From: Phycisphaerales bacterium
GTDB lineage: Bacteria > Planctomycetota > Phycisphaerae > Phycisphaerales > SM1A02
NCBI GenBank assembly: GCA_009692045.1
Contig: SIAA01000001.1
Coordinates: forward strand, 62,001-126,000
DNA: 64,000 nt
Direction: 5' to 3'
Shown here: positions 9,148-26,268 of the stretch, in pieces
Layout of the letters: each line of letters starts with the position of its first letter
How positions within the stretch are numbered: the first letter of the stretch is position 1
Position numbers and translations under genes: made by a program
The notes under the pieces: model-generated
The model's input: the letters and a program-made list of their open reading frames with translations, nothing else
Told to the model about the DNA's origin: nothing
Database searches by the model: none

Positions 9148-9151
<4 letters not shown>
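7727..9151 (-). CDS. actC: Alternative Complex III subunit ActC (NrfD/PsrC family)
   Basis: Large membrane subunit thought to hold the quinol-binding site. 474 residues with about 10 helices, including the conserved [22 protein letters not shown] and [29 protein letters not shown] segments (abridged here) that define the NrfD-like family in ACIII. Its start overlaps the actB stop by 4 bases, and actD overlaps its end by 4. Partner of ActB, whose iron-sulphur clusters are next to the quinol site. Confidence 0.96.
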
Positions 9152-12380
<3,229 letters not shown>

Positions 12381-12393
<13 letters not shown>

Positions 12394-13034
12394 GTGGAGC
12401 AGTTCTCGCTAGGAGTGATGTGATAGAGACGAGCGATGCCCTCGCGTTCTTCGCGGGTCATCTGGGTGTTCTGGTCCCATGAGAGCGTCGTGATCTTGGA
12501 TACAGGACGAAGTCGATCAATGGGATCTCGATGACACTCGAGGCACCAACCCATGGATAGCGGTTTGACCCTGGTGACTACCGCCATCTGATCAACGCGG
12601 CCGTGACACTCCACGCAACTCACTCCCCGATTCACATGGGCACTGTGATCGAAGTATGCGTAGTCAGGAAGCTTGTGCACTTTGATCCACTCAATCGGCA
12701 TCCCCGACTCATAACTGCTCTTCACCGGAGCGAGCAGAGGGCTGCCCTTGCGAATCTGGGTATGGCAGTTCATGCAGACTTGCGTGGATGGAACCGCGGC
12801 GAACCATGATCGCTCGACGGTGCTGTGGCAGTAACGGCAGTCGAGTCCAAGTTCGCCCGCATGGCGCGCGTGGCTGAAAGGAACTGGCTGAATCGGCTGG
12901 TATCCCTTCTCCAGCGATTTGGGGCTGAAGCCGTAGGCGACGATAAAAACTGCGTATAGCGGCACCACCGCACCAGCAATAGCCAGCACTGGCACTAGGC
13001 TGTCGATCCACCGTGGAAATAGGAATCTGCTCAT
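12381..13034 (-). CDS. actA: Alternative Complex III subunit ActA, pentahaem cytochrome c
   Basis: Multihaem periplasmic cytochrome anchored by an N-terminal helix (about 11-35, LVPVLAIAGAVVPLYAVFIV). The 217 residues contain five haem motifs: CRYCH 66-70, CMNCH 87-91, CVECH 140-144, CLECH 164-168 and CSTCH 212-216, the last only one residue from the C-terminus. Five haems match the known pentahaem ActA of Rhodothermus. First gene of the respiratory operon; overlaps actB by 13 bases, an unusually long overlap here. A promoter lies about 46 bases upstream. Confidence 0.96.
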
Positions 13035-13207: not shown

Positions 13208-13672
13208 ATGATCGAGTCACAGTTGCATCCTGAGCTTGTCTTGAGGCTGTCTGGCGACTTTTCCCGTGACGCACTTCTTCTGCGGCTGACCGACGCTTTG
13301 ATCCTGCGAAAGCCGGAGCTGGACCGCCAATCGGTTTTCAACGCCCTTCTCGAACGCGAAGCCGCGGGGCAGACTGCCACGCCTGAAGGGGTAGCATTTC
13401 CTCATGCTATTCGGTCCGATATCCTTGAGTCGGTCATGGTTATCGCCACTACCACTATGCCGGTTCCCTTCTCAACCGATCCCGCTACGCCTCCGGCGCG
13501 CCTGTTCATGGCCCTGTTCGGCTCGCCCGAGCAGCCTTGGCGACATGTGCAAACGCTCGCACGCCTTGCGCGCATCGCATCCGAACCACAGGCACGCGCC
13601 CGACTCCTGCAATGCGCTGATAGCACCGCTCTCTATGAGCAGATGATGAAGGAGATTGGCGACCATGCCTGA
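13208..13672 (+). CDS. PTS EIIA-like regulatory protein (fructose/nitrogen type)
   Basis: 154-residue single-domain protein of the PTS EIIA type-2 fold, which accepts phosphate on a histidine. The active-site histidine is in GVAFPHAI (about residue 64). The C-terminal half (LARLARI...LLQCAD) matches the usual helical end. No EI, HPr, EIIB or EIIC is encoded nearby, so a regulatory rather than sugar-transport role is likely. First gene of an operon with a P-II-like protein and two antiporter-like proteins; the next gene overlaps its end by 8 bases (ATGCCTGA). No clear Shine-Dalgarno site precedes the ATG. Confidence 0.85.
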   Translation: MIESQLHPELVLRLSGDFSRDALLLRLTDALILRKPELDRQSVFNALLEREAAGQTATPEGVAFPHAIRSDILESVMVIATTTMPVPFSTDPATPPARLFMALFGSPEQPWRHVQTLARLARIASEPQARARLLQCADSTALYEQMMKEIGDHA

Positions 13673-14090
13673 ACCGCGTAAGGGTGACACCAGGCATGGA
13701 AAGGTAAGTGGAGGCGCTGGAGATACCAGGCACGATCACGCCCGTGAACTGCCCCGGCAAACCAATCCGACCGACCCGCGCCTGCTCTTGGTAATCGCTC
13801 GCAACGAAGAGTCATTTGATGGCGTGGTGACCTCGCTGCTCGACATCGGCGTGGTGGGCGCAACCGTAGTGGAGGCGCGCGGTCTCGCCGCCATCCTGCG
13901 CGAAGAAATGCCCATCTTCGCTGGATTGGCCGCTCTGCTTCCCCAGACGACGGGCGCGAGGATCCTGTTCTCGATCACCACCTTCCAACATGTCGCGCAA
14001 CTGATCGCTCATGTATCGAAGTTTCCCAAAGAGCGCCAACCGATTCTCCTGTCGATACCCGTAGATCAGATCTTCGGCGTAACGCGATGA
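13665..14090 (+). CDS. Small P-II-like protein
   Basis: 141 residues from the ATG that overlaps the EIIA gene. About 35 residues at the N-terminus are polar and Arg/Gly/His-rich; the rest (PRLLLVIARNEESFDGVVTSLL, then VVGATVVEARGL) has the beta-alpha-beta look of a P-II/GlnB-like fold: a first strand, a helix and the G-x-T-V-x-x-x-x-G turn. I cannot see a conserved T-loop with the uridylylated tyrosine. It ends by overlapping the first antiporter-like gene by 4 bases. A ligand-sensing subunit for the adjacent transporters is the natural guess, not a demonstrated one. Confidence 0.65.
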   Translation: MPEPRKGDTRHGKVSGGAGDTRHDHARELPRQTNPTDPRLLLVIARNEESFDGVVTSLLDIGVVGATVVEARGLAAILREEMPIFAGLAALLPQTTGARILFSITTFQHVAQLIAHVSKFPKERQPILLSIPVDQIFGVTR

Positions 14091-15361
14091 TCGTTGCCGA
14101 GCAGTCCCTCTCCGACGCGCCTCAGCTCGATGTCGCCCTGCGTGTCTTCATTGCCATCGCCGCCATCTACGCTCTAGCGAGCCTTACTCAATCCGGTCTG
14201 GCCCAGCGCATGCGCCGAGTGCCCGCGATCGCCATGCTCATCTCCGGTGGCTGGCTGGCCGTGCTCACGGGGATGATCGCTGGCCCGCGAGCTCTGAATC
14301 TTCTGTCAGAGTCAACCTTGCTGGCTGCCAGTCCGCTCGTAGTCGTGGCACTCTCATGGGTCGGACTGATTGTCGGACTGCAGGCCCGTGTCGTAATCAT
14401 CAAGGCCGTGCCTGCCGAAGTGTGGAAGTGGGTGGCAGTCGACGCGGCCTTGGCAGTCGCACTCGCCTCGCTTGCCGCCTGGATTCTGGGGGGAATCTGG
14501 CTAATCGAGTCGCCCTCACAAGGCTCGTGGGTTGTCATGATCTGGGCGACTCTCACCTGTGCATCTATCGGATGGTCACCTGAAACAAGATCGCTCCGAC
14601 CAGGGCTCGGTGCCAAGGCGCACCGACTCGGAGTCTTGATCCAAGCGGGTGCGGGACTGTGCGGTCTCTTCTCTGCAGAACTCTCCGCCGTCTGCGTGGG
14701 ACTGGTTCACCGCAGCGCCGAGGGAATTGCATCCGCCAGCATCCCCGACATGACAATCGCGATACTCCTCGCAGCGGCACTTGCCTGCGTGCTCGCACTG
14801 GGAACACGAGTGGTACTGGGACAGTCGATCTCCGATGGCAGTTCCATCAGCGTGATCGTGTTGGCAACTGTCGCCATCACGGGTGGCGTCGCGGCTTCGG
14901 TAGGACTCTCTCCCATCGCGGCCGCTGCGCTCGCTGGCGCTGCGATAGCCAATGTTCGCGGACCACTGCGAATCACCGAACGCATCCTGAACCGCGCGGA
15001 ACCGGTGGTGGCGACCATGATGTTCATGCTCGCTGGTGCTCTCATGCGCCTGCCTGATCATCCGATTCTCTGGGCGGTTGCCGCCCTGCTCGTGGCGAGC
15101 CGAGTGGTACTCAAACCCACGGTGATGCGAAGTTCTTTGTGGCACGAACGAGCCTCGCTAGCGCTGGACGGCCCCTTGGCGCGCGCCACGATTCGTCAGG
15201 CGCCGCTGGCAATCGCGGTAGCGGTGACGGCCGCGGTGTTTGAGGGGAGTCGATTCAGCGGCGAGTTGCTCGGGCTGGTGGTGATCACCGGGCTGGCAAG
15301 TTCACTGATCGGCGCTGTGCAATCCGCGCAGCAGTCATCTGCCATTGAGGTACATGAATGA
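14087..15361 (+). CDS. Polytopic membrane protein, cation/proton antiporter-like
   Basis: 424 residues, about 11-12 hydrophobic helices and almost no soluble domain. The pattern (early paired helices, inverted Gly/Ala-rich second half with SVGLSPIAAAALAGAAIANVRGP, then a final helix pair) resembles CPA-type Na+/H+ exchangers. I do not see the paired ND/DD ion-binding motif of typical CPA2 proteins, so this one may be divergent or a non-transporting partner. Co-translated with its neighbours (4-base ATGA overlaps on both sides). The next gene encodes a second antiporter-like protein, so a hetero-oligomer is possible. Confidence 0.6.
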   Translation: MIVAEQSLSDAPQLDVALRVFIAIAAIYALASLTQSGLAQRMRRVPAIAMLISGGWLAVLTGMIAGPRALNLLSESTLLAASPLVVVALSWVGLIVGLQARVVIIKAVPAEVWKWVAVDAALAVALASLAAWILGGIWLIESPSQGSWVVMIWATLTCASIGWSPETRSLRPGLGAKAHRLGVLIQAGAGLCGLFSAELSAVCVGLVHRSAEGIASASIPDMTIAILLAAALACVLALGTRVVLGQSISDGSSISVIVLATVAITGGVAASVGLSPIAAAALAGAAIANVRGPLRITERILNRAEPVVATMMFMLAGALMRLPDHPILWAVAALLVASRVVLKPTVMRSSLWHERASLALDGPLARATIRQAPLAIAVAVTAAVFEGSRFSGELLGLVVITGLASSLIGAVQSAQQSSAIEVHE

Positions 15362-16782
15362 GCGCGCTCCGCGAAGCCCTGCGTCGGCTGGTGCGCTCCC
15401 GCGCGCTCCCCACTCAGTTCTTGGCGCTCGGATCACTGATGGTGATTTACTTTCTTGTGCGCCTGCTGACTCCGGAACATCCCAATCTGGATGCAGCGCC
15501 TGTTGATGCTTTGGGCGGCAGCGCCCTACCCACGCCCAGCGATCTGATGGACTCCACCGCGGCGCTGGGTTTCCTCCTGCTGGGGGCGTTCATCTCCGGA
15601 AACATTTCGCGAGCAGCAGGACTGCCACGCCTGACTGGTCATCTGATATTCGGATGCATCGCTGGTCCCCAGCTCCCAGCCGCCCTGGGGCTACCTCAGT
15701 GGACCCTCATCACCACGGGACAGCTAAATCATCTAGGAATCGTGAACGCACTGGCAGTAAGCCTCATCGGGCTGAACGCTGGTGGCGCCATTCGCCTCTC
15801 ATTCATACGGCGGCACGGTCGCGGGTTGTTGTTGTTTGTATCCATTACTACCAGCGCTGTCGCACTTTTCTGCGGTGCCGCCGGTTGGTGGGTATTCCCT
15901 TCAATGCTCGGCAGCGAGTCCACGCTCTCGGGCTCTCAGACACTCGCCATAGCCGCCCTCATCGGCATCATCTGCGCCACCACGAGTCCCGCCGCTTGCA
16001 TCGCCCTCATGCGCGAAACTGGGGCGCGGGGAGTGATGGCGCATGCCGCGCTCACCGCCACCGTGTGCGGCGACCTGATCTGCTCTATAGCACTCAGCGC
16101 CGTAATCGCATTCACAGCCGGAACTCTTGACCCGAACTTTGCCCTGCGAAGTGGGGACATGGGAGTGGTGTGGCATCTGGTGGGATCGTTTGCTGTCGGC
16201 GCCATCGCCGCGCCCATCTTGCAGATTCTGGGCAGCAAGGCCAGCGCTCGCCCCCAAACTGCCGTGCTGGTTGGCGCGCTCGGCCTGGCTCTGGTCTGCA
16301 CCTCGCTCTCGCTCTCTCCGCTGGTGGCGGCACTGAGTGCTGGTCTCGTTCAGGCGAATGTGCTACCAGGGAGCAGTCGCAGATTCTTTGAGGGAATCGA
16401 CTCCCTATCCGCCCCCGTGTTCTGCGTGTTCTTTGCGATCGCTGGCGCAGGTATAGATGTGAACATGCTCAAGGTTCTGTGGCCTGCAGCTCTGGGCCTT
16501 GTTGCCCTGCGCGCCGTCACTTCAACCTTTTTCACTGCCGCTACCGTGAGGTTCGTGGGCCTGCCCCCGCCGGCACGGCGCTGGTTGTGGACTGCACTGT
16601 TGCCTCAGGCGGGTGTCTCACTAGCGCTCGCCAATGAGGTTCACAGTTCCTTCCCCGATTCATCATGGTCGCTGGCACTGTGGAGTCTGTTGGTCACTGT
16701 CATTGCCATCAATGAGACGCTGGGGCCGCCGCTGATGCGCTACGGGCTCATTCGTGCCGGCGAAGCATCATGGAGCAAGTGA
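15358..16782 (+). CDS. Cation/proton antiporter (CPA-like)
   Basis: 474 residues with about 12-13 helices. It keeps clearer exchanger features than the gene before it: AAGLPRLTGHLIFGCIAGP near residue 85, a T-S-P-A-A segment followed by RETGARG, and the helix ATVCGDLICSIAL with an acidic residue where CPA proteins carry the ion-binding aspartate. The last part (PQAGVSLALANEV) also fits the family. Last gene of the EIIA/P-II-like operon, overlapping the previous gene by 4 bases. The transported ion (Na+ or K+) cannot be read from the sequence. Confidence 0.75.
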   Translation: MSALREALRRLVRSRALPTQFLALGSLMVIYFLVRLLTPEHPNLDAAPVDALGGSALPTPSDLMDSTAALGFLLLGAFISGNISRAAGLPRLTGHLIFGCIAGPQLPAALGLPQWTLITTGQLNHLGIVNALAVSLIGLNAGGAIRLSFIRRHGRGLLLFVSITTSAVALFCGAAGWWVFPSMLGSESTLSGSQTLAIAALIGIICATTSPAACIALMRETGARGVMAHAALTATVCGDLICSIALSAVIAFTAGTLDPNFALRSGDMGVVWHLVGSFAVGAIAAPILQILGSKASARPQTAVLVGALGLALVCTSLSLSPLVAALSAGLVQANVLPGSSRRFFEGIDSLSAPVFCVFFAIAGAGIDVNMLKVLWPAALGLVALRAVTSTFFTAATVRFVGLPPPARRWLWTALLPQAGVSLALANEVHSSFPDSSWSLALWSLLVTVIAINETLGPPLMRYGLIRAGEASWSK

Positions 16783-16828: not shown

Positions 16829-17680
16829 ATGATCGACACTCACTGTCATCTAACACGACCTGAGCTCTCGGCGGACCTCGAGTCAATATTGGCTTGCTGC
16901 CAAGCGGCTGGAGTCCATCACTGCATCAGTGTTGCTACTTCGACTGCAGATTCCCTCGCGGCGCGGGTCTTGGCGGAGCGGTACACCTGCGTACTTTTTT
17001 CCGCCGGTGTTCATCCACTTCACTCTGACGAACCCATCGACTGGGAGCAGATGCGCCATGCATCACAGAGCCCACGCTGCGTGGCATGGGGAGAACTTGG
17101 GCTTGATTATCACTATCCCCAGCCACCGCGCGAGGTGCAACATCGCGTCCTCGATGAGCAGTTGGATCACATTCGCCGCTGGCAAGCCGAGGAACTCGGT
17201 CGCCCCATCATTATCCACTGCCGCAAGGCATTCGAGGAGTTGATCCCTATCCTCAAGAACACTGGGCTGCCCCCCGACATGTTTGTGTTTCACTGCTTCA
17301 ATGCCGGACCGAGTGAGGCGCGATTGATCCTCGACTTCGGTGCTTGGCTCTCCTTCACCGGCATACTCACCTACAAGAATGCGCCGCAGGTTCGGGAGGC
17401 TGCCAAGTTGGCCCCGCTGGATCGAATCATGGTCGAGACTGACGCACCGTTTCTTTCGCCGGAGCCTCATCGAGGTGAATGGCCCAATCGACCCCATCAG
17501 GTGACTCTGGTTGCTCGATGTCTCGCAGCGGAGCGCGGCATGAACGAGACCGACCTAGAGACAATGCTCGACCAGAACGCTGTTCGCTTCTTTGGCACAC
17601 TTATGCGCAGCGAGGAGCCGCCATCGCCGTTTGGCTCTACCGCGCCCGACTCTGCCGCTAGGATCACGCCCCACAAATGA
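16829..17680 (+). CDS. tatD: TatD-family metal-dependent hydrolase (DNase)
   Basis: Amidohydrolase-fold nuclease of the TatD family; proteins of this family act in DNA repair or RNA turnover despite the name. 283 residues with the metal-binding signature MIDTHCHL at the start, GELGLDYH near residue 91, IIIHCR, FHCF and the late VETDAPFLSP motif carrying the last aspartate. The stop overlaps the tatC start by 4 bases. Gene name and position next to tatC should not be read as a role in protein export. Confidence 0.95.
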   Translation: MIDTHCHLTRPELSADLESILACCQAAGVHHCISVATSTADSLAARVLAERYTCVLFSAGVHPLHSDEPIDWEQMRHASQSPRCVAWGELGLDYHYPQPPREVQHRVLDEQLDHIRRWQAEELGRPIIIHCRKAFEELIPILKNTGLPPDMFVFHCFNAGPSEARLILDFGAWLSFTGILTYKNAPQVREAAKLAPLDRIMVETDAPFLSPEPHRGEWPNRPHQVTLVARCLAAERGMNETDLETMLDQNAVRFFGTLMRSEEPPSPFGSTAPDSAARITPHK

Positions 17681-18672
17681 GAGCAGGATTCAGACAATCC
17701 GGTGAATCCGGAACCATGAGTTTCGGCGACCATCTGGAAGAACTGCGGCGGCGCGTCTTTCTGGCGGTGGCAGTGCCGCTGCCACTGGCGATCATCCTCT
17801 TTGCATTCGCCGGCACCATTCGCGCGTGGCTGTGGGCTCCCGCCGCCTATGCCCTAGGTTTGCAAGGCCTGCCCGCAACCGCGCAAGTTCTGAGCCCGGT
17901 CGAGACACTGGGGATCGATCTCAAACTCAGTCTGATCGGCGCAGTTGTGATCGCTGCCCCGTGGGTGTTCTGGCAAGCATGGCTGTTCATCTCACCCGGG
18001 CTGTACATCCACGAGCGAAGATTCGTCCACCTACTTCTTCCTCTGTCGGGAGTGCTCGGACTCGCCGGAGTGGCGCTCCTGTACTTCGTAATGCTTCCGG
18101 TCATGCTTTCCGCGCTCATTTCCTTTGCCCAAGTTCCGAGCACCACCGTGGGCATGACGCAAGGTGACCAGAGCAGCCCCATGTTGCCCATCCTGAGCGC
18201 GGATCCCGCCCAGGCTCGCCCCGGGCAGATGTGGATTCTTGAAGGCACGCACGAAGTGCGGCTCGCCGTTCCCGGAAGCGACGCGGAGCGCGTCGATGTC
18301 TTGGTGCTGCAGACCAGCCGACCCGGTGGCCTCCTGCAACAGTTCCGCCTGAGCGAGTACATCAACTTTGTACTGCTAATGGTGATGTGCATCGCCGTCG
18401 CATTCCAGCTGCCAGTTGTTGTTCTGCTCTTAGGCTGGGTGGGAATCGTCACACCGGGCTTCCTCGCCAAGAACCGACGATACGCCCTGGCGATCGTGGC
18501 GGTTATCTCGGCTCTAATCGGCCCTGGGGATGCGTTCAGCATGCTGCTCTTCCTCGTTCCGCTCTACATCCTGTATGAGTTCAGCATCCTGCTTCTTCGC
18601 ATCGCGCCAGCAAAACGAGTTGCAGCGGCAAGACTCCTGGGCAAGGAGACCGGTCGCGAGGCGGATGAGTGA
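17677..18672 (+). CDS. tatC: Twin-arginine translocase subunit TatC
   Basis: Core receptor of the Tat export system in the inner membrane. 331 residues with six helices; the N-terminal signal-peptide-binding motif FGDHLEELRRR and the ISPGLYIHERR loop are intact, as is the P-x-D-x-x-S near the end (GPGDAFSM). Two oddities: Gln244 (AFQLPVV) stands where TatC has a conserved membrane glutamate (F-E-L-P), and the loop between helices 3 and 4 is enlarged by roughly 60 residues. A shorter start at 17716 would also give an intact protein. The ActB Tat signal shows it has at least one likely substrate here. No tatA/tatB is in the window. Confidence 0.94.
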   Translation: MRAGFRQSGESGTMSFGDHLEELRRRVFLAVAVPLPLAIILFAFAGTIRAWLWAPAAYALGLQGLPATAQVLSPVETLGIDLKLSLIGAVVIAAPWVFWQAWLFISPGLYIHERRFVHLLLPLSGVLGLAGVALLYFVMLPVMLSALISFAQVPSTTVGMTQGDQSSPMLPILSADPAQARPGQMWILEGTHEVRLAVPGSDAERVDVLVLQTSRPGGLLQQFRLSEYINFVLLMVMCIAVAFQLPVVVLLLGWVGIVTPGFLAKNRRYALAIVAVISALIGPGDAFSMLLFLVPLYILYEFSILLLRIAPAKRVAAARLLGKETGREADE

Positions 18673-25794: not shown

Positions 25795-26268
25795 TCACTG
25801 GGCCGCAGCGGTTTCGACGCCACGAAACAGTTCGTACAAACTTGCGGCATCGGGCGCGCTGAAGGCGCGTTCTCGAAAGAGCGGATCGGACATGATTCTG
25901 CTGAACCGGCCCAGCGCCTGAATGTGATCGGTGATTCGATCGGGTGGCGAAACCAGCAGCACGATCATGCGCACGGGCTTGCGATCCACCGCCTCAAACT
26001 CAATCGGATGCAGGGGTCGGCCCATCGCCATCTGCAGTTTGGTGGCACTCGCGCACTTGCCATGGGGAATCGCCAGACCCTCACCGATCCCGGTGGAACG
26101 CAGTTGCTCTCGTTCCCACACCGCATGTTTCAGCGCCGCCGCATCGGCGATTCCTCCCGCTGCCGCCAGCATGTCTACCAACTCCTCGATGGCCTCGCGG
26201 CGCGAGTTGGCCAAGAGAGGAACTTTCACGCATTCAGGACGAATGATCTCGATGAGGTTGGCTGTCAT
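25795..26268 (-). CDS. PTS EIIA-like protein (PtsN type)
   Basis: 157 residues of the EIIA type-2 fold with the phospho-acceptor histidine in GLAIPHGKC. The N-terminus (LIEIIRPECVKVPLLANSRREAIEELVDML) and LVSPPDRITDHIQALGRFSRIM match the nitrogen/fructose EIIA family closely, and better than the EIIA at 13208. No other PTS component is close. It follows the polyferredoxin-TPR gene by 82 bases on the same strand and converges on the RsmB-like gene with 11 bases between. Confidence 0.9.
   Translation of the reverse strand: MTANLIEIIRPECVKVPLLANSRREAIEELVDMLAAAGGIADAAALKHAVWEREQLRSTGIGEGLAIPHGKCASATKLQMAMGRPLHPIEFEAVDRKPVRMIVLLVSPPDRITDHIQALGRFSRIMSDPLFRERAFSAPDAASLYELFRGVETAAAQ

Follow-up and report, generated by a model that had tools for sequence, protein, structure and literature searches.

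Layout of the locus and its neighbours

The window analysed in the current study is a 64,000 nt stretch of a Phycisphaerales genome (2.17 Mb, 95% complete), and all nucleotide positions given here refer to its first base. It carries four ORFs on the + strand, here called A to D, which were assigned as follows:

nt 13208–13672 (+), ORF A: EIIA protein (PTS_EIIA_2 / PtsN-like), 154 aa; Pfam PF00359, E 1.4e-18
nt 13665–14090 (+), ORF B: PII-like protein, 141 aa; PF00543 matches within its family, profile and structural model
nt 14087–15361 (+), ORF C: degenerate CPA-superfamily membrane protein, 424 aa; sub-threshold PF00999 match, hhalign and structural model
nt 15358–16782 (+), ORF D: CPA antiporter-like subunit, 474 aa; PF00999, E 5.4e-18, and profile matches to solved antiporters

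Consecutive ORFs overlap by 8 (A/B), 4 (B/C) and 4 (C/D) bases, and in this respect the coordinates agree with the original prediction. That prediction also held that nothing else is in the operon, a statement that goes too far, as a TatD-like gene starts at nt 16829, just 46 bases past the end of D and on the same strand. It is followed by a tatC-like gene at nt 17677 (TatD/TatC stretch, nt 16829–18672, +), and genes of both types are found near the operon again in more than 20 related loci. Given the short distance, the common strand and the recurring synteny, read-through from D is possible, and the TatD-like and TatC-like genes may be co-transcribed with the operon.

Upstream of A, and divergent from it, is an alternative-complex-III-like cluster (nt 9148–13034, –) with ActB- and ActA-like genes, these labels being assignments from sequence features. 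In the window and in 23 named relatives alike, an ActA-like cytochrome gene sits immediately upstream of the operon on the other strand; it has been kept as a neighbour in these relatives despite the fast divergence of the proteins of the operon itself.

The four gene products

The two signalling ORFs contain the following short features:

nt 13403–13405 (+), codon of His66 of A, the predicted phospho-acceptor, within an FPHA motif; identified from the alignment column
nt 13908–13928 (+), MPIFAGL motif of B (residues 82–88), at the T-loop position between strands 2 and 3; identified from the alignment and the model

ORF A scores 67.7 bits against PTS_EIIA_2 (PF00359, E 1.4e-18), well above the curated Pfam cut-off of 27, and its best match among solved structures is the nitrogen regulatory IIA protein 1a6j (E 4e-9). 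Of the 71 aligned sequences that extend over the column of residue 66, 70 have His there. Profile searches of the genome recovered one EI, one HPr and three EIIA in all, with the HPr gene adjoining an EIIA gene on contig 11. A second EIIA, more canonically PtsN-like and with an IPHGK motif, is encoded within the window (nt 25795–26268, –). EIIC (PF02378) has no match in the genome, and a sugar PTS was rejected on this ground; the natural reading of the EI, HPr and EIIA set, as judged from sequence, is a PTS relay that would serve regulation and not sugar uptake.

A single-sequence search of Pfam, NCBIfam and the PDB with B alone returned nothing informative, including no match to PF00543, and the canonical P-II model has no match in the genome. 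Among 22 members of the B family that were scanned, 19 do match P-II (PF00543), and when a profile of the family was compared to solved structures, PII proteins came first (E 5e-5). The AlphaFold model of B, built on 81 sequences (mean pLDDT 83.5), shows a ferredoxin-like PII fold; the top Foldseek matches were all PII, and VIA-align gave Z 9–10 against PII-like, CPII and SbtB structures. The first 36 or so residues (nt 13665–13770), in which GDTRH occurs twice, form an N-terminal tail of low model confidence. In the profile alignment the nucleotide loop of the B family reads gsgiaf where canonical PII has GDGKIF with its Lys, and the T-loop segment is unlike that of canonical P-II. At this position the MPIFAG(L) segment is helical in the model (helices 71–81 and 83–91), with P83 invariant over the 81 sequences and F85, A86 and G87 conserved in at least 90%. 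Since the GDGKIF loop is not conserved, canonical GlnB was rejected as an identity for B, and this, together with the helical segment at the T-loop position, marks B as a PII-like protein, not a GlnB. Its ligand is probably an adenine nucleotide or a similar small molecule.

Of the two membrane proteins, D matches Na_H_Exchanger (PF00999) at 65.4 bits (E 5.4e-18), and its profile matches solved Na+/H+ antiporters, whereas C reaches 23.8 bits, under the cut-off of 26.2. Single-sequence searches of the PDB with either protein gave nothing informative. As a PDB search with the C profile also returned no CPA protein, the homology of C to the CPA superfamily rests on its hhalign comparison with D (99.6%, E 4e-24) and on its fold; the C model (pLDDT 92, pTM 0.90) has the NapA fold, aligning with 5bz2 over 372 residues (Z 28.0, rmsd 5.1). 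Pfam domains other than Na_H_Exchanger were found in neither C nor D, so that both are without a CorC/RCK-type cytosolic region. A maximum-likelihood tree places the first and the second CPA genes in separate clades, and most loci have one pair in each operon. Between the distance matrices of C and D the correlation is 0.97, compared to 0.83–0.89 for other gene pairs, a value that is also raised by common species ancestry and by the fact that C and D are longer. This co-divergence supports a complex without proving one.

The ion site was compared using a frame in which a profile built from four CPA proteins, each encoded as the single CPA neighbour of a B gene, was aligned to NapA. In that profile, Asp-Asp and Gly-Lys fall on Asp156-Asp157 and Lys305 of NapA. 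We take Asp157 to be the transport (ion-binding) residue, and the roles of all three residues in NapA to be established. The relevant positions in the window are:

nt 14570–14596 (+), TM4 break of C, GWSPETRSL (residues 162–170), with E166 and R168; from the alignment and the helix break in the model
nt 14660–14665 (+), C192-G193 of C, at the positions of NapA Asp156-Asp157, with both Asp missing; from alignment columns and NapA mapping, with hhalign in the same register
nt 15113–15115 (+), K343 of C, equivalent of NapA Lys305; from the alignment
nt 15194–15199 (+), R370-Q371 of C, in the second discontinuous helix; from the alignment and the helix break in the model
nt 16069–16074 (+), G238-D239 of D, in TM5, with Asp239 equivalent to NapA Asp157 and Gly238 at the Asp156 position; from the alignment

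All 61 D proteins retain the transport Asp (Asp239 in the window), and the Lys305 equivalent is absent from every one of them; at the Asp156 position 49 of the 61 have Lys, while the window has Gly238. The reverse is seen in C, where the transport Asp is missing from 61 of 62 proteins (Gly193 in the window) and the Lys305 equivalent (K343) is present in 62 of 62. Thus, one paralogue has kept Asp157 and the other Lys305, and the ancestral site appears to have been divided between them. C lacks the TM5 transport Asp by which a functional CPA antiporter is recognised. The Asp156 equivalent is retained in all 12 C proteins outside the clade of the window and in none of the 50 within it. The same 50 proteins invariably carry E166 and R168 (ExR) in the TM4 break and an Arg at the position of R370 in the second helix break. 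A decaying pseudogene was considered for C and rejected, as the frame is open and these charged residues are invariant (50/50).

The original prediction had named the first gene an EIIA and nt 13665–14090 a P-II-like protein, and both identities hold: the former on the PF00359 match and conserved His66, the latter on a model fold shared with PII, CPII and SbtB. It had also described two non-identical exchanger-like proteins, which are now seen to be CPA-superfamily members of separate clades. The loss of an ion-site motif from the first and retention of the Asp in the second proved more pronounced than claimed, extending across nearly all C and all D proteins.

Distribution of the gene set

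The B profile was run against 84,980 species genomes and recovered 171 relatives, of which the best 80 were analysed. The order A-B-CPA-CPA was found in 56 of these 80 loci (53 with two CPA genes and three with three) and in several phyla, so the gene order that the original prediction singled out does extend beyond this genome. Among the same best 80 of 171, two loci have the order CPA-CPA-A-B, and four more fit as far as they reach, being truncated where the contig ends; in 70 loci B directly follows A. These loci come from Planctomycetota, Myxococcota/'Deltaproteobacteria', candidate division CSSED10-310 and Aminicenantes, among others, and the named relatives are mostly Planctomycetota, many of them labelled Phycisphaerales. 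Within a sample of the phylum, B is present in 31 of 392 genomes, the weakest matches being marginal and several of the genomes being the same assemblies as the named loci, and so not independent. The module is therefore patchy in the phylum. For two loci, L069 (labelled Vicinamibacteraceae) and L098 (labelled Proteobacteria), C and D fall inside Planctomycetota clades, a placement that would reflect either transfer or misbinned MAGs.

The number of membrane genes varies. The three operons with three CPA genes (L091, L100, L102) each carry one C and two D paralogues. A single CPA gene accompanies B in L105, L131, L123 and L120, and in one Planctomycetota family (L048, L049, L051) a fused EIIA-PII (A-B) gene is followed by a single C-type protein, that of L049 having no Pfam match. 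Two different subunits are thus not always needed.

The A-B pair is also found apart from CPA genes. In 8 of the 80 loci no CPA gene accompanies A-B in the stretch examined, in some cases owing to contig ends. Two Aminicenantes loci (L112, L117) have the pair near a CLC gene with CBS and TrkA-C (TrkA_C) domains, and L126 has it near a CNNM gene with a CorC_HlyC domain; these neighbours point to ion-transport regulation as the common theme. Neither EIIA nor CPA genes were found in the stretch examined around the B genes of L042, L046 and L047, all from one Planctomycetota family. The neighbours of B in L042 are zinc-finger, GGDEF and 2-hydroxyacid dehydrogenase genes.

Possible working and known systems

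The reading favoured here, with a probability of roughly 0.55, takes the four genes to specify a single cation/H+ antiporter, heteromeric and regulated, in which one subunit is a degenerate partner and which EIIA phosphorylation and a PII-like sensor would gate. D, with its ion-binding Asp239, would be the transporting protomer and would exchange a monovalent cation, the presumed substrate, for protons. C would be a NapA-like paralogous protomer without an ion-binding Asp; it would not transport, or would work in another way, and would most likely pair with D as a heterodimer. A would signal how far a PTS relay (PEP, EI, HPr, EIIA) is phosphorylated, no sugar permease having been detected for this relay, and A and B may bind the cytosolic face of the exchanger and switch antiport on or off. 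Homeostasis of monovalent cations (K+ or Na+) and of pH would thereby follow the energy and carbon status of the cell. Since C and D are without the cytosolic CorC/RCK-type domain that PtsN binds in YcgO (PMC11808508), the EIIA would need another docking site.

Whether C and D instead form two separate homodimeric exchangers with common regulators must be considered, the site of C (E166, R168, R370 and K343) then serving to carry a different substrate, for instance an anion, or as a path for protons. The invariance of these residues (E, R, R, K) in all 50 C proteins of the clade, at the discontinuous helices or near the Lys305 site, argues for such activity, as a dead protein would drift, and the lone C-type protein beside the fused EIIA-PII points the same way. 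However, C is almost always found next to D and the two co-diverge, and C proteins outside the clade keep the Asp156-Lys305 pair and lose only the transport Asp, for which a structural role is the better fit. Separate exchangers are accordingly regarded as doubtful.

It is less probable still, and on present evidence unlikely, that A-B is a general regulatory cassette for ion transport, with a mainly signalling function, and that the CPA pair is merely its commonest client. The CLC and CNNM loci, and those eight in which A-B stands without a CPA gene (some at contig ends), are consistent with such a role, but the large majority of A-B pairs accompany CPA genes, and a cassette of this kind is compatible with a regulated antiporter, not exclusive of it. 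A chance neighbourhood, or the remnant of a sugar PTS with no common function, is very improbable, as no point was found in its support and it is opposed by the conservation of the order across phyla, the existence of A-B fusions and the failure of any gene in the genome to match EIIC.

A fuller form of the regulated heteromeric antiporter can be put forward tentatively: a heterodimer with a pseudo-transporter subunit, in which the ancestral Asp-Asp-Lys site is split, under the control of an EIIA and a PII-like protein that as a pair are portable and also act on CLC and CNNM. That the pair occurs beside CLC (two loci) and CNNM (one locus) genes suggests that it may indeed be a portable regulator of ion transport.

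If the regulated heteromeric antiporter is correct, EIIA and PII, two of the best-known families of bacterial metabolic signalling proteins, would be joined on one ion exchanger, and a CPA exchanger would exist with one active and one degenerate protomer, so that the need for both protomers to work in elevator-type exchangers would become directly testable. It would also supply a role for a gene set that is conserved in several phyla, largely uncultured ones, and a job for the PTS relay of a genome in which EIIC was not detected.

Control of an antiporter by an EIIA and of a transporter by a PII-like protein are each known, while their combination on a pair of diverged CPA paralogues was not found in the freely available papers searched. 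Nor did these searches return a description of a set of EIIA, PII-like protein and CPA pair. In E. coli, PtsN (EIIA-Ntr) and YcgO/CvrA likewise bring together an EIIA of the nitrogen-PTS type and an antiporter of the CPA superfamily; unphosphorylated PtsN binds and inhibits this K+/H+ antiporter, so that phosphorylation state sets antiport (PMC11808508), while for the operon of the window such regulation is a prediction. The part of that paper covered here describes YcgO as a CPA1 protein made of one polypeptide, in which PtsN binds to a cytosolic region with putative RCK and CorC domains, unlike C and D, and mentions neither a PII-like protein nor a second paralogous subunit, for both of which the window operon has genes.

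The second parallel is SbtB, a PII-like protein that binds and regulates SbtA (PMC13249358). As here, a small PII-like protein is paired with a membrane transporter, and the fold of B is close to that of SbtB, but SbtA, a bicarbonate transporter, belongs to another family, no EIIA is involved, and B has the helical MPIFAG segment at the T-loop position. In GlnK-AmtB and CPII, too, a protein with the PII fold acts on a membrane transporter or is encoded alongside one. B shares their fold but is without the GDGKIF sequence of the PII nucleotide loop, and the window operon has no ammonium transporter or carboxysome gene.

With NapA and other CPA2 Na+/H+ or K+/H+ antiporters, such as KefC, C shares the fold and the discontinuous helices and D the transport Asp. 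NapA and other CPA2 antiporters are known as homodimers of identical protomers, whereas in the operon described here the Asp and the Lys of the NapA site are split between two diverged paralogues.
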